From contig CACJML010000001.1 in NCBI GenBank assembly GCA_902594515.1, forward strand, positions 272,977-336,976: a stretch of DNA of 64,000 nt, given 5' to 3'. Numbering within the stretch: position 1 is the stretch's first letter; each line of letters starts with the position of its first letter. The notes beneath the pieces are model-generated. The model was not told where the DNA came from and searched no databases. It saw only the letters and a program-made list of their open reading frames with translations. Shown here piece by piece: positions 1 to 9,047 of this stretch. This stretch comes from an uncultured SAR86 cluster bacterium. Lineage in GTDB: Bacteria > Pseudomonadota > Gammaproteobacteria > Magnimaribacterales > D2472. A program made the position numbers and the translations under genes.

Positions 1-686
1 TCAATAATATCATCTGGCACAATGCAAGTTTTTCCCTCAACGTCACCAATAATATTCATTACTTCTGATTCATTTGCAGCCGCTCTTCGTTTATCAATAA
101 TTGCAAGGTCAGATTCATCTAGAAATTTTGCAAGAGCGCGAGATCTAACTACTCCACCTACATCTGGAGAAACAACAATTAATTTTTCATTTGCGCTTGG
201 ACTTCTTTTGATATCATCAACCATAATCTTGGTTGCATAAACATTATCTGCAGGCATATCAAAAAATCCTTGAATTGTTTCAGAATGAAGATCTACTGTA
301 AGAACTCTTTGAATTCCCACTTGATTGAGCATGTCTGCTACAACCTTTGCACTGATTGGTACTCTTGCTGATCTAACTCTCCTGTCCTGTCTTGCGTAAC
401 CAAAATAGGGGATGATGGCAGTAATTCTCGAAGCAGAAGACCTCTTTAGTGCATCAGCCAATAGCATTAACTCCATTATGTTTGCATTAGACGGCTGACA
501 AGTTGATTGAATTATAAATGTTTCATGTCCTCTAACATTTTCAAGCAACTCAACTCTTATTTCGCCATCTGAGAATTTGCTGACCTCGACCTTACCAAGA
601 TCTTGTCCCAAAATAGATGCAACTTCTGATGCAAGGACTGGGGTCGCATTCCCAGAAAAAATATCTAAACTAGATTTACTAAACAT
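1..686 (-). CDS. prs: Ribose-phosphate pyrophosphokinase (PRPP synthetase), partial at left edge
   Basis: Makes PRPP from ribose 5-phosphate and ATP in the cytoplasm, feeding nucleotide, His and Trp synthesis. The minus-strand frame opens with ATG at 686 and runs off the window, giving about 228 N-terminal residues. It begins [19 protein letters not shown] and contains the family regions [20 protein letters not shown] and [12 protein letters not shown], the last being the metal/ribose-phosphate region. The C-terminus lies outside the window. It sits just downstream of tRNA-Gln and ispE on the same strand, the usual gammaproteobacterial ispE-tRNA-Gln-prs order, so it is probably co-transcribed with them. 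Identity is firm. Confidence 0.95.
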
Positions 687-1598: not shown

Positions 1599-2094
1599 TT
1601 CTTAGAAATCCATTTGCTTCAAGATTCAATGTTGAAATTTTAAACATTATTTTTCCTTCATTAAATTTACATGTATAGCCATCAGTTATAACTAATTTTT
1701 TATTAATCAAGCAGCTCCTTGTATTTGAAATAATATTCATTTTGTCTAGTTCAATAAGCACATCTTGTTCTAAATAATTAAAAAAGTTTTCCTGAAAAAT
1801 AAAATTTTCATTGAATTTAATGTCATATTCAAAAATGGTACCAATTAACGGCCTATAAAGTTGTATAATAAATTCATTATTTGTGTACTTTATGAGCATA
1901 TTTGATCTTAATATCTCTTTGTTATAGCTAATCTCAACTTTACCTTGATATTTTATATATTTGTCAGCATTAAATGTTGCACATGAAGAAAGCAAAAAAA
2001 TAATAAAAATTGTTGAATATTGAAAAATGGAACTAAAGCTTTTTGGAATTAGCCATAAAACTGCAAATTTAGAGATGCGGGAATCTTTTGTCAT
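1585..2094 (-). CDS. lolB: Outer-membrane lipoprotein LolB (divergent, start uncertain)
   Basis: LolB receives lipoproteins from LolA and inserts them into the outer membrane. The sequence is divergent; the call rests on position (divergent from hemA, upstream of ispE, as in E. coli), length (about 170 residues) and a lipoprotein signal ending LLSSC, which puts the lipidated Cys near residue 38. The remainder is a beta-rich domain of about 130 residues, consistent with the LolA/LolB fold. The only upstream ATG (2094) lies 68 bp inside hemA and has no visible Shine-Dalgarno. A shorter product from a non-ATG codon after 2027, such as ATT just before FQYS, is possible. Start confidence is low, function moderate. 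Confidence 0.62.
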   Translation of the reverse strand: MTKDSRISKFAVLWLIPKSFSSIFQYSTIFIIFLLSSCATFNADKYIKYQGKVEISYNKEILRSNMLIKYTNNEFIIQLYRPLIGTIFEYDIKFNENFIFQENFFNYLEQDVLIELDKMNIISNTRSCLINKKLVITDGYTCKFNEGKIMFKISTLNLEANGFLRNVSL

Positions 2095-3247
2095 AAATGA
2101 TGACCATTATAGTTATATGCAGAATCTTTTAGAAACAAAGTTTGCCGGTGAAATAGATAGCATCTTTGTTTTATCAACGTGCAATCGAACTGAGGTTTAT
2201 TCATATTGTAGAGGCGAGGATTCCCATCAACAATTTTTTCAATCAATTTATAAATATTTAGGCTGTGACTTAGATATAACTAAAAATTTTTATCAATTCT
2301 CTGGAATAGCAGCATTCAAGCATATGTGTTCAGTTGCATCAGGTATTGAGTCAAGAATAATAGGTGAGAAAGAAATATTTGGTCAATTCAAAAAAGCCAA
2401 TGAGCTTTTCTTAAATATCGGCCTCAATAAACGCATGTTGTCAATGTATACGGATGCAGCAATCAAGATTGCTAAACAAGTAAGGTCAAATACAAAAATT
2501 GATCATAATCCTGTATCTATTTCTTCATTAGTATTGAATGTTTTCGCTGAAATATTTGAAAATCCTTTGAATCAAAAAATAATTACAATTGGAGCCGGTG
2601 AGGTTGCTTCAGGAGTTTTGAACGCTTTAGTAAATGCAGGATTCCAAAATCTAACATTTGCAAATAGAACTCCTAAAAAAATTAGCCTTGGAGATAATAT
2701 AAGTCTCTCGTCTAGACCTCTAAACAAGCTTGATCAATTATTATTAGGACAAGATATTATCATTTCATCAATCTCTACCGATTTACCCTTTATCGGCAAG
2801 GGATTGATCGAAAAAATTTCGGCTCATAGAAAAAATAAACCACTCGTTATTATTGATCTTGGGGTACCTAGGAACGCAGAGTCTTCGATTAAAAATATTG
2901 AGCAAGTTTATCTTTTCTCGCTGGAAGACATCGAGTCTTTTAGTAATGAAAATTTAAGAGCTAGAGAGTCTGAAGCTGAGAAGGCAAAAGTACTTATCAA
3001 TGACTTATGCTCCTCAAATGATGAGGGGCTAAAAGAAAAAGTTTCACGTAAAGAACTTTACTCAGCTCTTACAAAATTAATTCAAGGTGCAACTGAGGAT
3101 TTCAAAACCAAACTTTTAAATTCTAATGATCCCATCAAAGCACTAAATGAAATCAATGATGCAGAAATAAAATTACCAAATAACATAAATGATATTGAAA
3201 GCTATGCACTTAAATCTATGATTAGGGAGATCATCGATGTTGCCTGA
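2027..3247 (+). CDS. hemA: Glutamyl-tRNA reductase
   Basis: Reduces glutamyl-tRNA(Glu) to glutamate-1-semialdehyde, the first step of C5-pathway tetrapyrrole synthesis. The 406-residue protein starts MELKLFGISHKTA, exactly where family members start, which supports ATG 2027 although no strong ribosome-binding site precedes it. The catalytic Cys is in STCNRTEVY (C52). The NADPH-binding region follows at about 185-195 with IGAGEVA, and a C-terminal helical dimerisation domain ends the protein. Heme made here would supply the cytochrome bc1 encoded at 27.3-29.3 kb. Its last 11 bp overlap prfA, so translation is likely coupled. Confidence 0.96.
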   Translation: MELKLFGISHKTANLEMRESFVINDDHYSYMQNLLETKFAGEIDSIFVLSTCNRTEVYSYCRGEDSHQQFFQSIYKYLGCDLDITKNFYQFSGIAAFKHMCSVASGIESRIIGEKEIFGQFKKANELFLNIGLNKRMLSMYTDAAIKIAKQVRSNTKIDHNPVSISSLVLNVFAEIFENPLNQKIITIGAGEVASGVLNALVNAGFQNLTFANRTPKKISLGDNISLSSRPLNKLDQLLLGQDIIISSISTDLPFIGKGLIEKISAHRKNKPLVIIDLGVPRNAESSIKNIEQVYLFSLEDIESFSNENLRARESEAEKAKVLINDLCSSNDEGLKEKVSRKELYSALTKLIQGATEDFKTKLLNSNDPIKALNEINDAEIKLPNNINDIESYALKSMIREIIDVA

Positions 3248-4340
3248 GTCTGTATTAAATAAGCTTAACTCTTTGGTATTGAGAAAAAAGGATCTTGAGG
3301 ATCAGTTATCCAGTGAAGGTGCCACCGAGGACATTTCAAAATTTACTTCACTCAATAAAGAATACTCTGAAATTACACCAGTAGTTGAATTGTATGGAAA
3401 TTATAATCATTCGCTTCAATCCATTCAGGAATCAAAAGAAATGCTTGATCTTGAGGAAAAAGAGATTATTGAATTAGCAAAACAAGAAATCGAAGAACTA
3501 GAATCAAGCATTGAGATAATTGAAAAAGATCTTAAGTTGTTGTTACTTCCAAAAGACAACGCTGATGATGGTGCCGCATACCTAGAAATTAGAGCTGGAG
3601 CAGGAGGTGACGAAGCTGCAATTTTTGCATCGGATTTATTGCGTCTTTACTCAAGATTTTGTGAAAGGGAAGGCTGGAAATTTGAGCTTATGACTAATAA
3701 AGTTTCTGAACCGGCAGGCACAAAAGAAGCTGTAATGAAGATTGATGGAGATGGAGTTTATAAATACTTGAAGTTTGAATCAGGAGTTCATCGAGTTCAA
3801 AGAGTCCCAGAAACGGAATCGCAGGGTAGGATTCATACTTCAACAGTAACTGTTGCTGTATTGCCAGTAGCAGATGAGGTTGAAGAAGTAGAAATTGATA
3901 AAAATGACCTTAGAGTGGATACATTTAGAGCTTCAGGTGCTGGAGGTCAACACGTTAATAAGACTGATTCTGCCATAAGGTTGACGCATCTTCCTACTGG
4001 CCTCGTTGTTGAGTGCCAAGATGACAGGTCACAGCATAAAAATAAAGCAAAAGCTATAACACTTTTGTCCAGTAAATTAAAAGCTATGGAGGAGGAGCAG
4101 CAGGCTCAAAGCATAGCAGATGAACGTAAGATTCTTGTTGGCACAGGCGATAGAAGTGAAAAGATTAGAACCTATAATTTCCCACAAGGCAGAATCACGG
4201 ATCACAGAATTAAATTGACTCAACATAACCTTGATCAGGTCATGGATGGAGACATCAAAGACATCTCAAGTGCTTTATTAACAGAGCATCAACTAGCCCA
4301 ATTAGCAGATTTAGAAACAGATGGAAGCCAACAACAATAA
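3237..4340 (+). CDS. prfA: Peptide chain release factor 1
   Basis: Recognises UAA and UAG and triggers peptide release. The 367-residue protein has the GGQ catalytic loop GAGGQ at residues 234-238. The codon-recognition tripeptide position reads PET (191-193), where E. coli RF1 has PAT; the context VQRVPETESQGRIHTS is RF1-type, not the SPF of RF2. The neighbouring prmC gene encodes the methyltransferase that modifies the GGQ glutamine. It overlaps hemA by 11 bp and prmC by 20 bp, so the three genes form one tightly packed operon. Confidence 0.97.
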   Translation: MLPESVLNKLNSLVLRKKDLEDQLSSEGATEDISKFTSLNKEYSEITPVVELYGNYNHSLQSIQESKEMLDLEEKEIIELAKQEIEELESSIEIIEKDLKLLLLPKDNADDGAAYLEIRAGAGGDEAAIFASDLLRLYSRFCEREGWKFELMTNKVSEPAGTKEAVMKIDGDGVYKYLKFESGVHRVQRVPETESQGRIHTSTVTVAVLPVADEVEEVEIDKNDLRVDTFRASGAGGQHVNKTDSAIRLTHLPTGLVVECQDDRSQHKNKAKAITLLSSKLKAMEEEQQAQSIADERKILVGTGDRSEKIRTYNFPQGRITDHRIKLTQHNLDQVMDGDIKDISSALLTEHQLAQLADLETDGSQQQ

Positions 4341-5151
4341 AGAGTTCATTTTTAAAAAGTGTCAGGCTTATAAAAAAGATTTCCCCGAAATACAAAAAGA
4401 CTTAAACATCTTTTTGAACTTCAAAGGCATTCTTAAATATCCGATTGAGTCTCCAATTGATCAAAAGATTGATAATCAATCTAAGTCATTTATCGATGAT
4501 GTTTTCTTCAGAAATTATCTTCAAGACATGCCTGTGGATTATATTTTAGGCAAGACCAATTTTTATGGTATCGAATTCAACGTTAATTATGATGTTTTAA
4601 TTCCAAGACCTGAGACCGAGCTAATTATTGACTATCTTATCGAGAGTGTTGGCTCAAAAAGAATTATCGTCGATGCAGGGACAGGCTCAGGGTGTATTGG
4701 AATAACTGCTGCTAAAAAGTTTCCTTCTTCAAAAGTGTTTGGTATTGATAAATCTTTTAGCGCACTAAAAATTGCGCAACAAAATCAGTTAGAGTTGGAT
4801 TGCAAAAACTTATATTTAATTCAATCGGATTGGCTTAAATGTTTTCAAAAAAATTCTATTGATATTATTTTGGCTAATCCTCCTTATCTTACATCATCAG
4901 ATCCTCATCTAAATTCTTTGCAATGGGAGCCCGAAAATGCCCTTGTATCAGGAGATACCGGAATTGAGTGTTTTGAAGAAATATTTTCACAATCTAAGTC
5001 ATTATTAAAAAAGGAAGGTTTTTTAGTTGTTGAGCATGGATATGATCAGCATAGAGACTTAGTTGATCTTGCAACTAGTATTAACTTAAGGGTTATTGAT
5101 AGCATTATTGATTATCAAAAAATACCTAGATGTTTGGTGTTAGGGACCTAA
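4321..5151 (+). CDS. prmC: Release factor glutamine N5-methyltransferase
   Basis: Methylates the GGQ glutamine of class-1 release factors using S-adenosylmethionine. The 276-residue protein has an N-terminal helical release-factor-binding region (about 1-75). The Rossmann methyltransferase domain shows the SAM motif DAGTGSGCIGI near 118-128 and the glutamine-binding signature NPPY at 186-189. The N-terminal part is poorly conserved, but the IPRPETE motif at 94-100 is typical of PrmC/HemK. It starts inside the 3' end of its substrate gene prfA, the classic order. Confidence 0.95.
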   Translation: MEANNNKEFIFKKCQAYKKDFPEIQKDLNIFLNFKGILKYPIESPIDQKIDNQSKSFIDDVFFRNYLQDMPVDYILGKTNFYGIEFNVNYDVLIPRPETELIIDYLIESVGSKRIIVDAGTGSGCIGITAAKKFPSSKVFGIDKSFSALKIAQQNQLELDCKNLYLIQSDWLKCFQKNSIDIILANPPYLTSSDPHLNSLQWEPENALVSGDTGIECFEEIFSQSKSLLKKEGFLVVEHGYDQHRDLVDLATSINLRVIDSIIDYQKIPRCLVLGT

Positions 5152-5157
5152 GCCAGA

Positions 5158-5883
5158 ATGAATTTCTGGGAAACAGCAACTCAGCTAAGTGGTTTTAATG
5201 AAACTTTAGTTGATGAACTTAATTCAAAAAAAATACTCTTAATAGGAGCTGGTGGATTGGCTCATCCCTTAGTAACTTCATTATGCGGTTCAGGGTTAAC
5301 AACTTTTGATATTGCCGATGGAGATGTAATCGAATACAAAAACCTTCACCGACAGTTCTTATTTAGTGAAAAATGTATTGGTCAAGGTAAAGCCAGAGTT
5401 TTGAAGTCTAAGTTAGATGATCACTACCCTCAAACTAACATTTCGATTATTGAAAAATTTCTTGAAGAAAAAGATCTATTTGAACAAATACCAAATTATG
5501 ATTTGATAATTGACTGTTCTGATAACTTTAAAACTAGATATAACATTAATGAGGTCTGTGTTGAAAAGAATATCCCTTTAGTCATGGGTCTAGCATCAGG
5601 AGTGACAGGTCATGCTGCAGCATTCCTAAATTATGCCAACAGCCCGTGTTACGAATGTATTTTTCCAAGGAACACAAATATCAATGAGGATTCATGTGAT
5701 GAGGTAGGAATTCTTACTCCAGTGTTGTCATATGTAAGCTCAATAGTTGCAATGATGACCATAAGAATAATCTTGGATCAATTCACAAAGGAAAATTTCT
5801 TATATAGGATAGATGGGATGACTTTAAAAACTAATCAAACGCTCATTAATAAAGATAAAGAGTGTTTTATATGTAAAAAATAA
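5158..5883 (+). CDS. moeB: MoeB/ThiF-family E1-like adenylyltransferase
   Basis: E1-like enzymes of this family adenylate the C-terminal glycine of a ubiquitin-like sulfur carrier (MoaD for molybdopterin, ThiS for thiamine). The 241-residue protein has the nucleotide loop GAGGLAHP (30-37), the DGD...NLHRQF region (55-68) and two zinc CxxC pairs, CYEC (164-167) and CFIC (236-239). Cys180 sits where the family's conserved Cys lies. There is no C-terminal rhodanese domain. Position after prmC matches moeB in many gammaproteobacteria, but sequence alone does not separate MoeB from ThiF. Its stop overlaps the next start as TAATG. Confidence 0.85.
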   Translation: MNFWETATQLSGFNETLVDELNSKKILLIGAGGLAHPLVTSLCGSGLTTFDIADGDVIEYKNLHRQFLFSEKCIGQGKARVLKSKLDDHYPQTNISIIEKFLEEKDLFEQIPNYDLIIDCSDNFKTRYNINEVCVEKNIPLVMGLASGVTGHAAAFLNYANSPCYECIFPRNTNINEDSCDEVGILTPVLSYVSSIVAMMTIRIILDQFTKENFLYRIDGMTLKTNQTLINKDKECFICKK

Positions 5884-6926
5884 TGCTTACAGGGTACATA
5901 GAAGGTTACTACGGTTCTTTGCTAGATTGGAATCAAAGGCTAAAAATTCTTGAATCCTTATCGGCCTTGAATCTCAACTCATATTTTTACTGTCCAAAAG
6001 AAGATCCATTTCATAGACTGGAATGGGCAGAAGATTATTCTGATGAGTATCTATTGAATGTGGGCTCATTTTTTGAATCTGCAAAATCTTCAAACATTGA
6101 ATTAATTTTCGGAATCTCACCTGGGTTTATAAGCGAGTCAATTGATCAGAAAATACTTAATAATAAAATCCAATCTATTTTTGATCTGGGAATCAAAAGC
6201 TTGTGTATTCTATTCGACGATATTTCATTTGAAGCCACAAAACAAAAAGGGAAAGAGCATGCAGAAATTTTAAATAAAGTTGTACAAGATTTTCCTGAAA
6301 TAAAGCTATACATAGTTCCACAAATATACTCTGATCAATTGTCTAAAACAGATGCCACAGATTGCCTGTACTTAAATGAGCTTTTTTCTAGTATGAAATA
6401 TCAGGTTCCTTTTTTCTGGACCGGAGAGAGTGTGGTTTCAAAAAGCTATGACCTTGAATACATTTCAAAAATTCAGGAAAGATTTAATCAAGACCTCATA
6501 ATTTGGGATAACTTTTATGCATCAGATTACTGTGAGCCTAGAGTTACCATTGATGCCTATAACCCATTTGTTAAAAATCCAAAAAATATTTACGGTGTAA
6601 TGATTAATCCTACTGGTAAGGTTAATCTTGATATTCTGTTACTTGAATTATTTTCATCTGGAATGGGTAAGGGTAATGAAGATTTCAAATCAATCTTAAA
6701 AAAACATTTACCAAATGAAATGATTGATATCTTGCATTATTTTAAATTTGAAGGGCGCATTGGTGATGTAGATAAAGATATAAAGATAATTGATAAGGTG
6801 CTATGGAACTCATCCATGGAAATTAAACTTGAGCTTTATCCATATCTACACTTTCTGAGATTTGTTTTAAAAAATAAGCCCGATCTAAAATATTTATTGG
6901 ATCAGCGCTTAAGATTAAAAAGCTAA
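5883..6926 (+). CDS. GH84-family beta-N-acetylglucosaminidase (O-GlcNAcase-like), no signal peptide
   Basis: GH84 enzymes remove beta-linked N-acetylglucosamine by substrate-assisted catalysis. The 347-residue sequence follows the GH84 catalytic barrel from its first residues: GYIEGYYGS (4-12), the YCPKEDPFHRLEW region (36-48), FGISPG (76-81), the catalytic Asp pair FDDI (D112, D113), FWTGESVVS and IWDNFYASDY. The protein begins directly at the first barrel strand, with no signal peptide or lipobox, so it looks cytoplasmic. It is coupled to the upstream MoeB-like gene through TAATG. The substrate is unknown: recycled cell-wall GlcNAc, a glycoconjugate, or a modified protein are all possible. 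The family call is strong; the biological role is open. Confidence 0.85.
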   Translation: MLTGYIEGYYGSLLDWNQRLKILESLSALNLNSYFYCPKEDPFHRLEWAEDYSDEYLLNVGSFFESAKSSNIELIFGISPGFISESIDQKILNNKIQSIFDLGIKSLCILFDDISFEATKQKGKEHAEILNKVVQDFPEIKLYIVPQIYSDQLSKTDATDCLYLNELFSSMKYQVPFFWTGESVVSKSYDLEYISKIQERFNQDLIIWDNFYASDYCEPRVTIDAYNPFVKNPKNIYGVMINPTGKVNLDILLLELFSSGMGKGNEDFKSILKKHLPNEMIDILHYFKFEGRIGDVDKDIKIIDKVLWNSSMEIKLELYPYLHFLRFVLKNKPDLKYLLDQRLRLKS

Positions 6927-6980: not shown

Positions 6981-8585
6981 ATGAAAGGTAATATGCAGAA
7001 TATGGATCTAACGATCCCTAAACTTATTGAGCATGCTGAAAGGTATACCAGCGATACTTTAATTGTCAGTCGCGAAACTGATAATTCAATTTTGAAGAAG
7101 ACTACTGGTGAGTGTTTAAATCAATCAAGGAAAATTGCTAAATTACTTCAAAGCCTTAAGGTTGGTATAGGGGATCGTGTGGCAACGATTGCATGGAATA
7201 ATTCTAGGCACTTTGAGATTTATTTTGGGGTAACCGGTATGGGCGGGGTTTTGCACACTATAAATCCAAGGCTTTTCCCAGAGCAACTAATCTACATTCT
7301 AAATCATGCTGAGGATAAAGTTGTATTTGTTGATGATACATTTCTACCACTTATTGAGGGAGTTCAAGATCACTTAGAGTTTTCACCAGCAATAATTCTT
7401 ATGGGTCCCAAAAAAGAGATAAATTTTGATATTAAAAATTTATATTTTTATGATGAAATGGTCGAGCAATCTGACCCTATTTCAGACTGGGTTGAAGTGG
7501 ATGAGGGGGATGCGGCAGCACTATGTTATACCTCTGGAACTACAGGTAATCCAAAGGGAGTTCTCTATAGTCACAGGTCTACCATGTTACATACTTGGGC
7601 ATCAGGAAATGCATTAAGGTTTGACACCACTAGCTCGGTATTACCGGTTGTACCAATGTTTCATGTGAACGCATGGGGAACACCTTATGCTGCTTTGATG
7701 ACTGGCTGTAAATTAATTCTGCCCGGTCAAGCGCTTGATGGAGCTTCACTATTTGAACTTATAAGTGCAGAAAATCCAAATATCCTTATGGGAGTGCCCA
7801 CTGTTTGGCTCGGATTATTAAATTATTTGTCTGAACAAAACCTAACTCTCGAGGGCGTTGACAGCGTCATGGTTGGTGGGTCAGCTGCGCCCCTTGCAAT
7901 GATTAAAGAGTTTAATGAAAAGCATAATACGTTTTTAGTCCATGGATGGGGCATGACAGAAATGAGCCCCCTTGGAACCATGAATCTTCAAACAAAGAAA
8001 ATGAAAGAATTACCAGATGAAGAGAGATATGAATTGCAAACTAAACAGGGCTATCCACTTTTTGGAGTAGAAATAAAGATTGTGGATGATGCTAACAATG
8101 AGCTTGCTAGGGATGGATCAGCGCAGGGCGCATTATTGGTCAGAGGGCCATGGATCATAGAGAGTTACTTCAAATCTGATTCACCAGCGGTTGATGATGA
8201 GGGATGGTTTGATACCGGAGATGTTGCAAAAATCTTCCCAGATGGTTGTATGCAGATAATGGACAGATCAAAAGATGTAATCAAGAGTGGCGGGGAATGG
8301 ATCAGCTCTATTGATCTTGAAAATGCTGCTGTTGGACATCCAGATGTCGAAGAAGCATGCGTAGTTGGAGTGCCCCATCCAAAATGGGATGAAAGACCGA
8401 TTCTTTTAGTGATTTGTAAGGGGGATTTAGATAAAGAATCAATTAATGAGTTTCTTGGAGATAAAGTGGCAAAGTGGTGGTTGCCTGATGATATTATTAA
8501 GGTAGACGAATTACCTCATGGAGCAACTGGTAAATTATTAAAAGTAGAGCTTAGAGAGCAGTATAAAAAACATTTAATGGAGTAA
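6981..8585 (+). CDS. Medium/long-chain fatty-acyl-CoA ligase (AMP-forming)
   Basis: Activates a carboxylic acid to its CoA thioester through an acyl-adenylate. The 534-residue protein has the AMP-binding P-loop YTSGTTGNPKGV at 183-194, the later motif GWGMTEMSP, the hinge-region motif DGCMQIMDRSKDVIKSGGEWIS, and the C-terminal catalytic Lys in LPHGATGK. The substrate cannot be read from the sequence, but the form resembles medium/long-chain fatty-acid ligases. A strong ribosome-binding site precedes the start. Only 3 bp separate it from the MaoC-like gene, suggesting a two-gene lipid-metabolism unit. A thiolase at 62.2 kb could act in the same kind of pathway. Confidence 0.9.
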   Translation: MKGNMQNMDLTIPKLIEHAERYTSDTLIVSRETDNSILKKTTGECLNQSRKIAKLLQSLKVGIGDRVATIAWNNSRHFEIYFGVTGMGGVLHTINPRLFPEQLIYILNHAEDKVVFVDDTFLPLIEGVQDHLEFSPAIILMGPKKEINFDIKNLYFYDEMVEQSDPISDWVEVDEGDAAALCYTSGTTGNPKGVLYSHRSTMLHTWASGNALRFDTTSSVLPVVPMFHVNAWGTPYAALMTGCKLILPGQALDGASLFELISAENPNILMGVPTVWLGLLNYLSEQNLTLEGVDSVMVGGSAAPLAMIKEFNEKHNTFLVHGWGMTEMSPLGTMNLQTKKMKELPDEERYELQTKQGYPLFGVEIKIVDDANNELARDGSAQGALLVRGPWIIESYFKSDSPAVDDEGWFDTGDVAKIFPDGCMQIMDRSKDVIKSGGEWISSIDLENAAVGHPDVEEACVVGVPHPKWDERPILLVICKGDLDKESINEFLGDKVAKWWLPDDIIKVDELPHGATGKLLKVELREQYKKHLME

Positions 8586-8588
8586 ATT

Positions 8589-9047
8589 ATGGCTATAACA
8601 GTAGTGAAAGTTGAAGATCTTGAAAGTTATGTTGGAAAAGAGTTAGGAGCTACTGACTGGTTTAAGATAGATCAAGAAAGAATTAATAAATTTGCGGATG
8701 CAACACTTGACAATCAATTTATTCATGTTGATCCTGAGCAAGCAACACCAATTTTTGGATCTACTATAGCCCATGGCTTTTTGACCCTATCGCTAACAGC
8801 AGGGATAGGGCAAGACGTTGCACTCGTTGTTGAAGGAGCCAAGATGGGCTTAAATTATGGTTTAGATAAGGTTCGTTTTTTAAGTCCCGTTCCAGTTGAT
8901 TCAGAAATTAGAATGCATTCAAAAGTTGTTGATATTACAGAAAAAAATCCTGGTCAATTTCTTGTTAAATCAGCAGTCACAATGGAAATTAAAGGAACTG
9001 ACAAACCTGCATGTATTGCTGAGACTTTGTCTATGTGGGTAACTTAG
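8589..9047 (+). CDS. MaoC-like (R)-specific enoyl-CoA hydratase/dehydratase
   Basis: Hot-dog fold protein of 152 residues. MaoC family members hydrate enoyl-CoA or dehydrate 3-hydroxyacyl-CoA. The hydratase signature is visible: Asp and His in DNQFIHVDPE (about residues 40-49), followed by GSTIAHGFLTLSL (about 58-70). It resembles the NodN-like subgroup. It lies 3 bp behind the acyl-CoA ligase and overlaps the convergent gatB end by 4 bp. The acyl substrate is unknown; a role in beta-oxidation-like chemistry with the ligase is inference. Confidence 0.87.
   Translation: MAITVVKVEDLESYVGKELGATDWFKIDQERINKFADATLDNQFIHVDPEQATPIFGSTIAHGFLTLSLTAGIGQDVALVVEGAKMGLNYGLDKVRFLSPVPVDSEIRMHSKVVDITEKNPGQFLVKSAVTMEIKGTDKPACIAETLSMWVT

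Follow-up and report, generated by a model that had tools for sequence, protein, structure and literature searches.

A Leaderless GH84 β-N-Acetylglucosaminidase Proposed to Replace NagZ in the Peptidoglycan Recycling of a SAR86 Lineage

The GH84 Locus

The window analyzed here is a 64,000-nucleotide stretch of DNA from an uncultured SAR86 cluster bacterium, the assembly of which has 1.36 Mb and is 93% complete. It contains the gene order hemA-prfA-prmC-moeB-like-GH84-ACS-MaoC-gatB (Table 1), in which ORF calling gave the GH84 gene an ATG start and a product of 347 residues. The name prmC, based on synteny, and the names acyl-CoA synthetase-like (ACS) and MaoC-like, based on sequence, are putative.

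Table 1. Features of the GH84 locus in window coordinates
Feature	Position	Strand	Basis
hemA and prfA, upstream section of the conserved gene order	2027..4340	+	named from sequence and synteny
prmC-like methyltransferase, conserved gene bounding the GH84 slot on the left	4321..5151	+	MTS domain, synteny; putative gene name by synteny
ThiF/MoeB-family adenylyltransferase, 241 aa; neighbor outside the proposed mechanism	5158..5883	+	PF00899; missing beside GH84 in several relatives
TAATG, ThiF/MoeB-family stop overlapping the GH84 start	5881..5885	+	sequence; possible translational coupling inferred
GH84 β-N-acetylglucosaminidase, 347 aa, leaderless; proposed cytoplasmic NagZ analogue	5883..6926	+	profile, PDB search, model, start-site and hydrophobicity scan
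Catalytic aspartate pair codons, D112-D113	6216..6221	+	invariant in alignments; aligned to DD of human OGA
ACS and MaoC-like genes, conserved genes bounding the GH84 slot on the right	6981..9047	+	putative names from sequence

The GH84 gene was initially annotated as coupled to a MoeB-type gene, the stop of which it overlaps. The overlap stands, as the GH84 ATG has one base in common with the upstream stop codon, and this arrangement may possibly permit translational coupling. The identity of the neighbor does not: its product matches PF00899 (E 8e-54) but neither the MoeB equivalogs (TIGR02355, 128.6 against a cut-off of 376.55; PRK05690, 153.1 against 266) nor ThiF (TIGR02356, 172 against 275.25) at the required score, and the MoeB-type label is therefore loose. 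A functional coupling of the two genes was rejected because GH84 persists in several families in which the neighbor has been altered or is absent; lineages without moeB at this position keep GH84 after prmC (L006, L008, L024, L143-L145). The link is positional only and incidental. Conservation of the locus itself extends to relatives, with the prmC-[moeB]-GH84-ACS slot common to the four SAR86 families f1, f2, f3, and f4, with or without moeB, wherever the loci reach far enough and genus g12 apart. At a related locus (L054, 4851-6081), hemA of the SAR86B genome FRAM18_bin313 lies in two overlapping frames, reflecting a frameshift or an assembly error.

A Complete GH84 Enzyme without a Leader

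The 347-residue protein scored 173.7 bits on Pfam PF07555 (NAGidase; cut-off 25, E 7.1e-51), which keeps it inside GH84. Its sole Pfam and NCBIfam matches were to GH84, with no match to the GH3/PRK05337 (NagZ) profile; the NCBIfam GlcNAcase equivalog NF041654, a model 732 positions long, was not reached (111.1 bits against a cut-off of 1000). The best PDB matches were human O-GlcNAcase (OGA; 2e-29) and the Oceanicola granulosus enzyme OgOGA (2xsa), with residue 1 aligned to residue 1. D112, D113, G4, K39, Y149, W208, N210, D215, and N242 are invariant in all 64 aligned GH84 proteins (42 from SAR86, 9 from SAR116, 9 from family f16, 1 from f20, and 3 alphaproteobacterial; the short L060 ORF was dropped from a set of 65), and these catalytic and pocket residues are also invariant in a second alignment of 34 proteins. 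Their pairing with the residues of the human catalytic pair and GlcNAc pocket comes from the PDB alignment. An AlphaFold2 model (25 sequences; pLDDT 86.1, pTM 0.89) has the GH84 barrel fold by structure comparison, with Z 35.0 against human OGA (335 residues, 3.2 Å) and Z 33.7 against OgOGA, and residues 2-6, at the start of the modeled chain, form the first barrel strand.

Just two codons separate the ATG from the nearest in-frame stop upstream of it, and no hydrophobic stretch was found in the first 40 residues (maximum KD19 0.5). Secretion was rejected because the protein has no leader and there is no space for one upstream of the ATG; judged by sequence only, it is predicted to be cytoplasmic. 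The GH84 landmarks, including the aspartate pair, and the start of a signal-free chain at the first barrel strand had been read from the letters in the initial annotation, and both observations were borne out. The gene is thus confirmed as that of a complete leaderless GH84 enzyme, with its activity predicted.

Human OGA resembles the SAR86 protein in fold, in active-site residues, and in its cytoplasmic location, but the two share 23-27% identity, and 347 residues leave no room for a pseudo-HAT domain. Two bacterial GH84s, Thermobaculum terrenum OGA (TtOGA; range 5..440) and OgOGA (1..396), likewise start near the first barrel strand but are longer, with about 440-460 residues in the crystal chains, and a 443-residue OgOGA-like protein (L071/L110) branches away from the short clades in the GH84 tree. 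Since Thermobaculum OGA has been demonstrated to be mainly intracellular (PMC4683255), a cytoplasmic bacterial GH84 is not new as such; in the accessible literature text, neither of the two longer enzymes is placed in peptidoglycan recycling.

Reciprocal Distribution of GH84 and NagZ

Profile searches of 101 SAR86-order genomes found GH84 in 58, NagZ in 38 (36 above the curated cut-off and two fragments, in G035 and G055), both in none, and neither in five. In the 40 genomes with a completeness of 90% or more, the corresponding counts were 26, 13, 0, and 1. nagZ, the absence of which had been left to be checked, is thus missing from all 58 GH84-bearing genomes. Three of the genomes with neither gene (G004, G041, G057) represent assembly gaps, as they lack even prfA; the other two (G025, G058) have an intact locus from which GH84 is missing, and the other listed members of their genera mostly carry NagZ. 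A published account of a SAR86 isolate reports, in its accessible part, that nagZ is missing from most SAR86 families, with one genus besides the "Suzuki" family, where it occurs across genera, as the only carriers, and files the gene among carbohydrate enzymes (PMC11582366).

Downstream and upstream steps of recycling are retained in the same genomes. AnmK was found in 92 of 101, including 51 of the 58 with GH84 and the window's own genome. AmpG-family permeases were found in 94 (76 above cut-off), including 55 of the 58; the window's own 93%-complete assembly gave no AmpG match, and five of six congeners (G001, G002, G004, G005, G006) have the permease. The SAR86 GH84 gene itself does not sit beside a recycling gene.

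The fold and pocket, closest to those of human OGA, could instead point to removal of O-GlcNAc from cytoplasmic proteins as in eukaryotes, together with an O-GlcNAc transferase (OGT), an option contained in the earlier suggestion of an intracellular GlcNAc conjugate. Thermobaculum terrenum offers a bacterial case, an intracellular OGA occurring together with an OGT (PMC4683255, accessible part). Human OGA has its OGT partner, but a GT41 match was obtained in 0 of 101 SAR86-order genomes, with Caulobacter and Synechococcus as positive controls, and O-GlcNAc cycling was rejected for SAR86 on this count. Such cycling would also leave unexplained the mutual exclusion with NagZ and the clustering with AnmK and MurQ described below, which makes it a very improbable function here.

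The same split recurs in f16, a gammaproteobacterial family unrelated to SAR86. Of its 151 genomes, 120 carry GH84 only, 26 NagZ only, four both (all of genus g213), and one neither, giving GH84 in 124 and NagZ in 30. Fisher tests returned p-values of 1e-22 and 6e-24, which ignore shared ancestry. Three f16 members with GH84 and genomes of 4.3-4.4 Mb gave zero GH3 matches. NagZ matches were likewise absent from all 10 SAR116 genomes with GH84 (completeness not stated), and the f20 carrier G286 has a GH3 match of just 1.9e-12. In a wider sample of 349 Pseudomonadota genomes, GH84 was found in 10 and NagZ, above cut-off, in 285. The rule that GH84 occurs exactly where NagZ is absent and the downstream enzymes are kept holds for SAR86, f16, and SAR116 but fails in four alphaproteobacterial carriers (G359, G368, G385, G421), which also have a NagZ-like GH3 (6e-67 to 6e-59). 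G186 has a partial GH84 plus NagZ.

Evolution of the GH84 Slot

In SAR86 genomes with NagZ, the slot is empty, reading prmC-moeB-ACS in f3 genus g19 (L094, L095) and prmC-ACS in genera g4, g8, and g9 (L082, L085, L086, L087). Occupation of the slot by NagZ was considered and not found; nagZ sits elsewhere, with no match to window genes around it at L061-L066 (also L101, L104). A species tree of 34 tips, built from four flanking markers, mixes the two states: g2, with GH84, adjoins g5, with NagZ, and G048, with GH84, is sister to the other g6 genomes, which have NagZ. Parsimony on this tree requires at least 5 (about 5) GH84/NagZ changes or, if both genes were ancestral, 6 GH84 losses and 11 NagZ losses.

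In the NagZ tree, the SAR86 sequences of f3 genus g19 (L066, L128/L129) and of f1 (L122-L127) split from those of other gammaproteobacteria with support of 100; three of 23 sequences, with no ORF by motif, had been dropped, and inner nodes are weak (50-64). This joint separation of NagZs from two SAR86 families would fit an ancestor with both enzymes followed by reciprocal loss. Genus g12 of f3 looks as if GH84 had been lost and then reacquired, because its slot is empty (L147) and its GH84, which lies elsewhere (L106), groups with those of f1 at support 97. The L106 gene neighbors an esterase, cytochrome b561, and a photolyase, none with a link to recycling.

Gene Clusters in Relatives

The named relatives are SAR86 and SAR116 marine bacteria, and the SAR116 GH84 proteins nest within those of SAR86 (moderate tree support, 65). 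AnmK and a PIG-L deacetylase lie upstream of GH84 at 10 of 10 SAR116 loci, an AmpG-family gene lies downstream at 8 of 10 (L052 ends early and L060 has none within 14 kb), and MurQ adjoins AnmK at 4 of 10; the gene families were profile-confirmed on example loci. Similar neighborhoods occur in Alphaproteobacteria, with sphingomonads carrying GH84 in a cluster of MurQ, AnmK, NagB, and NagA. At L108 (f45), the order is TonB receptor, MurQ, GntR, NagX-like, FAD oxidase, NagB-II, NagA, GH84, AnmK, and Novosphingobium sp. EMRT-2 is annotated with MurQ, symporter, TonB receptor, AnmK, phosphatase, SIS protein, NagA, GH84, D-lactate dehydrogenase, and BadF-type kinase, D-lactate being the byproduct of MurQ. 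The neighbors in the SAR116, L108, and EMRT-2 clusters fit GlcNAc-anhydroMurNAc as the predicted substrate. No recycling genes adjoin GH84 at the f16 (L098, L117) and f20 (L099) loci.

The SAR116 deacetylase is PIG-L/BshB-like, matching BshB1 below the cut-off; it lies between AnmK and GH84 at L046 (7250-7939, - strand) and in the same place at nine other loci, and may act on a GlcNAc or MurNAc compound. Its constant position could hint that GH84 serves another GlcNAc compound, such as a nucleotide-sugar or lipid-linked conjugate unique to these bacteria. There is next to no chance of this, given that a scan of SAR86 loci revealed no such deacetylase next to GH84 and that the substrates of AnmK and MurQ are MurNAc compounds.

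GH84s are somewhat promiscuous exo-hexosaminidases, and longer members of the family sit amid glycan-degrading genes in Asticcacaulis and Deinococcus, so that more than one role exists across the family. The SAR86 protein might accordingly be pictured as an exo-GlcNAcase with a general task in the cytoplasm, acting on chito-oligosaccharides or glycan fragments taken up by the cell, the NagZ pattern reflecting shared ancestry and not function. However, the same exclusion of NagZ appears in two unrelated lineages, loss from the slot repeatedly tracks retention of NagZ, and the clusters contain AnmK and MurQ, which are specific for anhydroMurNAc. The Asticcacaulis and Deinococcus proteins are, moreover, longer, at about 460-650 residues by annotated spans. 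We regard a general role as improbable.

Proposed Role in Peptidoglycan Recycling

We consider it very probable that, in this SAR86 lineage, the NagZ step of peptidoglycan recycling has passed to a predicted cytoplasmic GH84 exo-β-N-acetylglucosaminidase. We infer the substrate, activity, and cellular role from a computed basis comprising the family, active-site conservation, the missing leader, reciprocity with NagZ, AnmK in the window's own genome, and the clusters of relatives. The mutual exclusion in two unrelated lineages (0 of 101 SAR86-order genomes with both enzymes and the same split in f16) and the clusters with AnmK, MurQ, NagA, NagB, and AmpG strongly support the earlier idea that the enzyme stands in for NagZ in cell-wall recycling.

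In the proposed mechanism, anhydromuropeptides made by lytic transglycosylases would be imported via AmpG, and GH84 would cleave GlcNAc-anhydroMurNAc, whether or not it bears a peptide, at its β-1,4 bond by the substrate-assisted mechanism typical of the family. Of the two aspartates, assigned by alignment, D112 would orient the 2-acetamido group and D113 would act as general acid/base. The freed anhydroMurNAc would be phosphorylated by AnmK, and GlcNAc would pass to sugar-phosphate metabolism.

GH84 would catalyze the same reaction in the same place as NagZ, a GH3 enzyme, acting in the cytoplasm on GlcNAc-anhydroMurNAc(-peptide) between AmpG and AnmK, and the two enzymes are present reciprocally but without sequence kinship. 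GH84 enzymes have a barrel that carries an Asp-Asp pair and work by substrate-assisted catalysis, whereas NagZ uses a GH3 nucleophile and a His-Asp dyad. In Gram-negative peptidoglycan recycling, NagZ is regarded as the standard glucosaminidase of the cytoplasm, and inhibitors are being designed against it. The proposal suggests that in such bacteria this step would be blocked by GH84-type inhibitors and not by NagZ-selective ones. A precedent for an unrelated protein taking one step of the same pathway is YejBEF-YepA, which replaces AmpG in Agrobacterium according to the accessible part of PMC9790009; there, the step is transport and not a glycosidase reaction. The same paper describes GlcNAc-anhydroMurNAc accumulating in an A. 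tumefaciens nagZ mutant.

GH84 is proposed as the missing enzyme where SAR86 lacks nagZ, and what replaces nagZ is a question that the accessible text of PMC11582366 does not ask. The proposal would also give a cytoplasmic role to bacterial GH84s, into whose physiological roles insight is described as lacking (PMC4683255, accessible part). No open-licence paper proposing GH84 as a NagZ replacement was found, in a scope that included Caulobacter recycling (PMC13046382, as far as accessible). Nor did this literature yield a paper joining AnmK with GH84, a GlcNAcase with AnmK in Sphingomonadales, or NagZ with a non-orthologous replacement. Open-licence work on NagZ, GH84, and peptidoglycan recycling together concerned inhibitor selectivity only, and that on O-GlcNAcase and muropeptides contained, in its accessible parts, no proposal of GH84 in recycling.

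A wider reading would make short cytoplasmic GH84s a second independent class of recycling glucosaminidase, repeatedly swapped with NagZ across Pseudomonadota, with muropeptide processing as the ancestral cytoplasmic GH84 job from which eukaryotic O-GlcNAcase was later recruited. This extension is doubtful.

GH84 in Other Records

An Aeromonas caviae record (NZ_AP026896.1; 4.94 Mb, filed as a plasmid) has GH84 and an AnmK match. It stands outside the best 40 NagZ matches (442 further) and the best 60 (423 further), which is suggestive only; the best matches listed include chromosome-sized records of E. coli, Klebsiella, Proteus, Acinetobacter, and Neisseria. Many Enterococcus plasmids (67 records, with E. 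faecium among the matches listed) encode a GH84 that is ~25% identical to the query and bears the annotation protein O-GlcNAcase or hyaluronate lyase.
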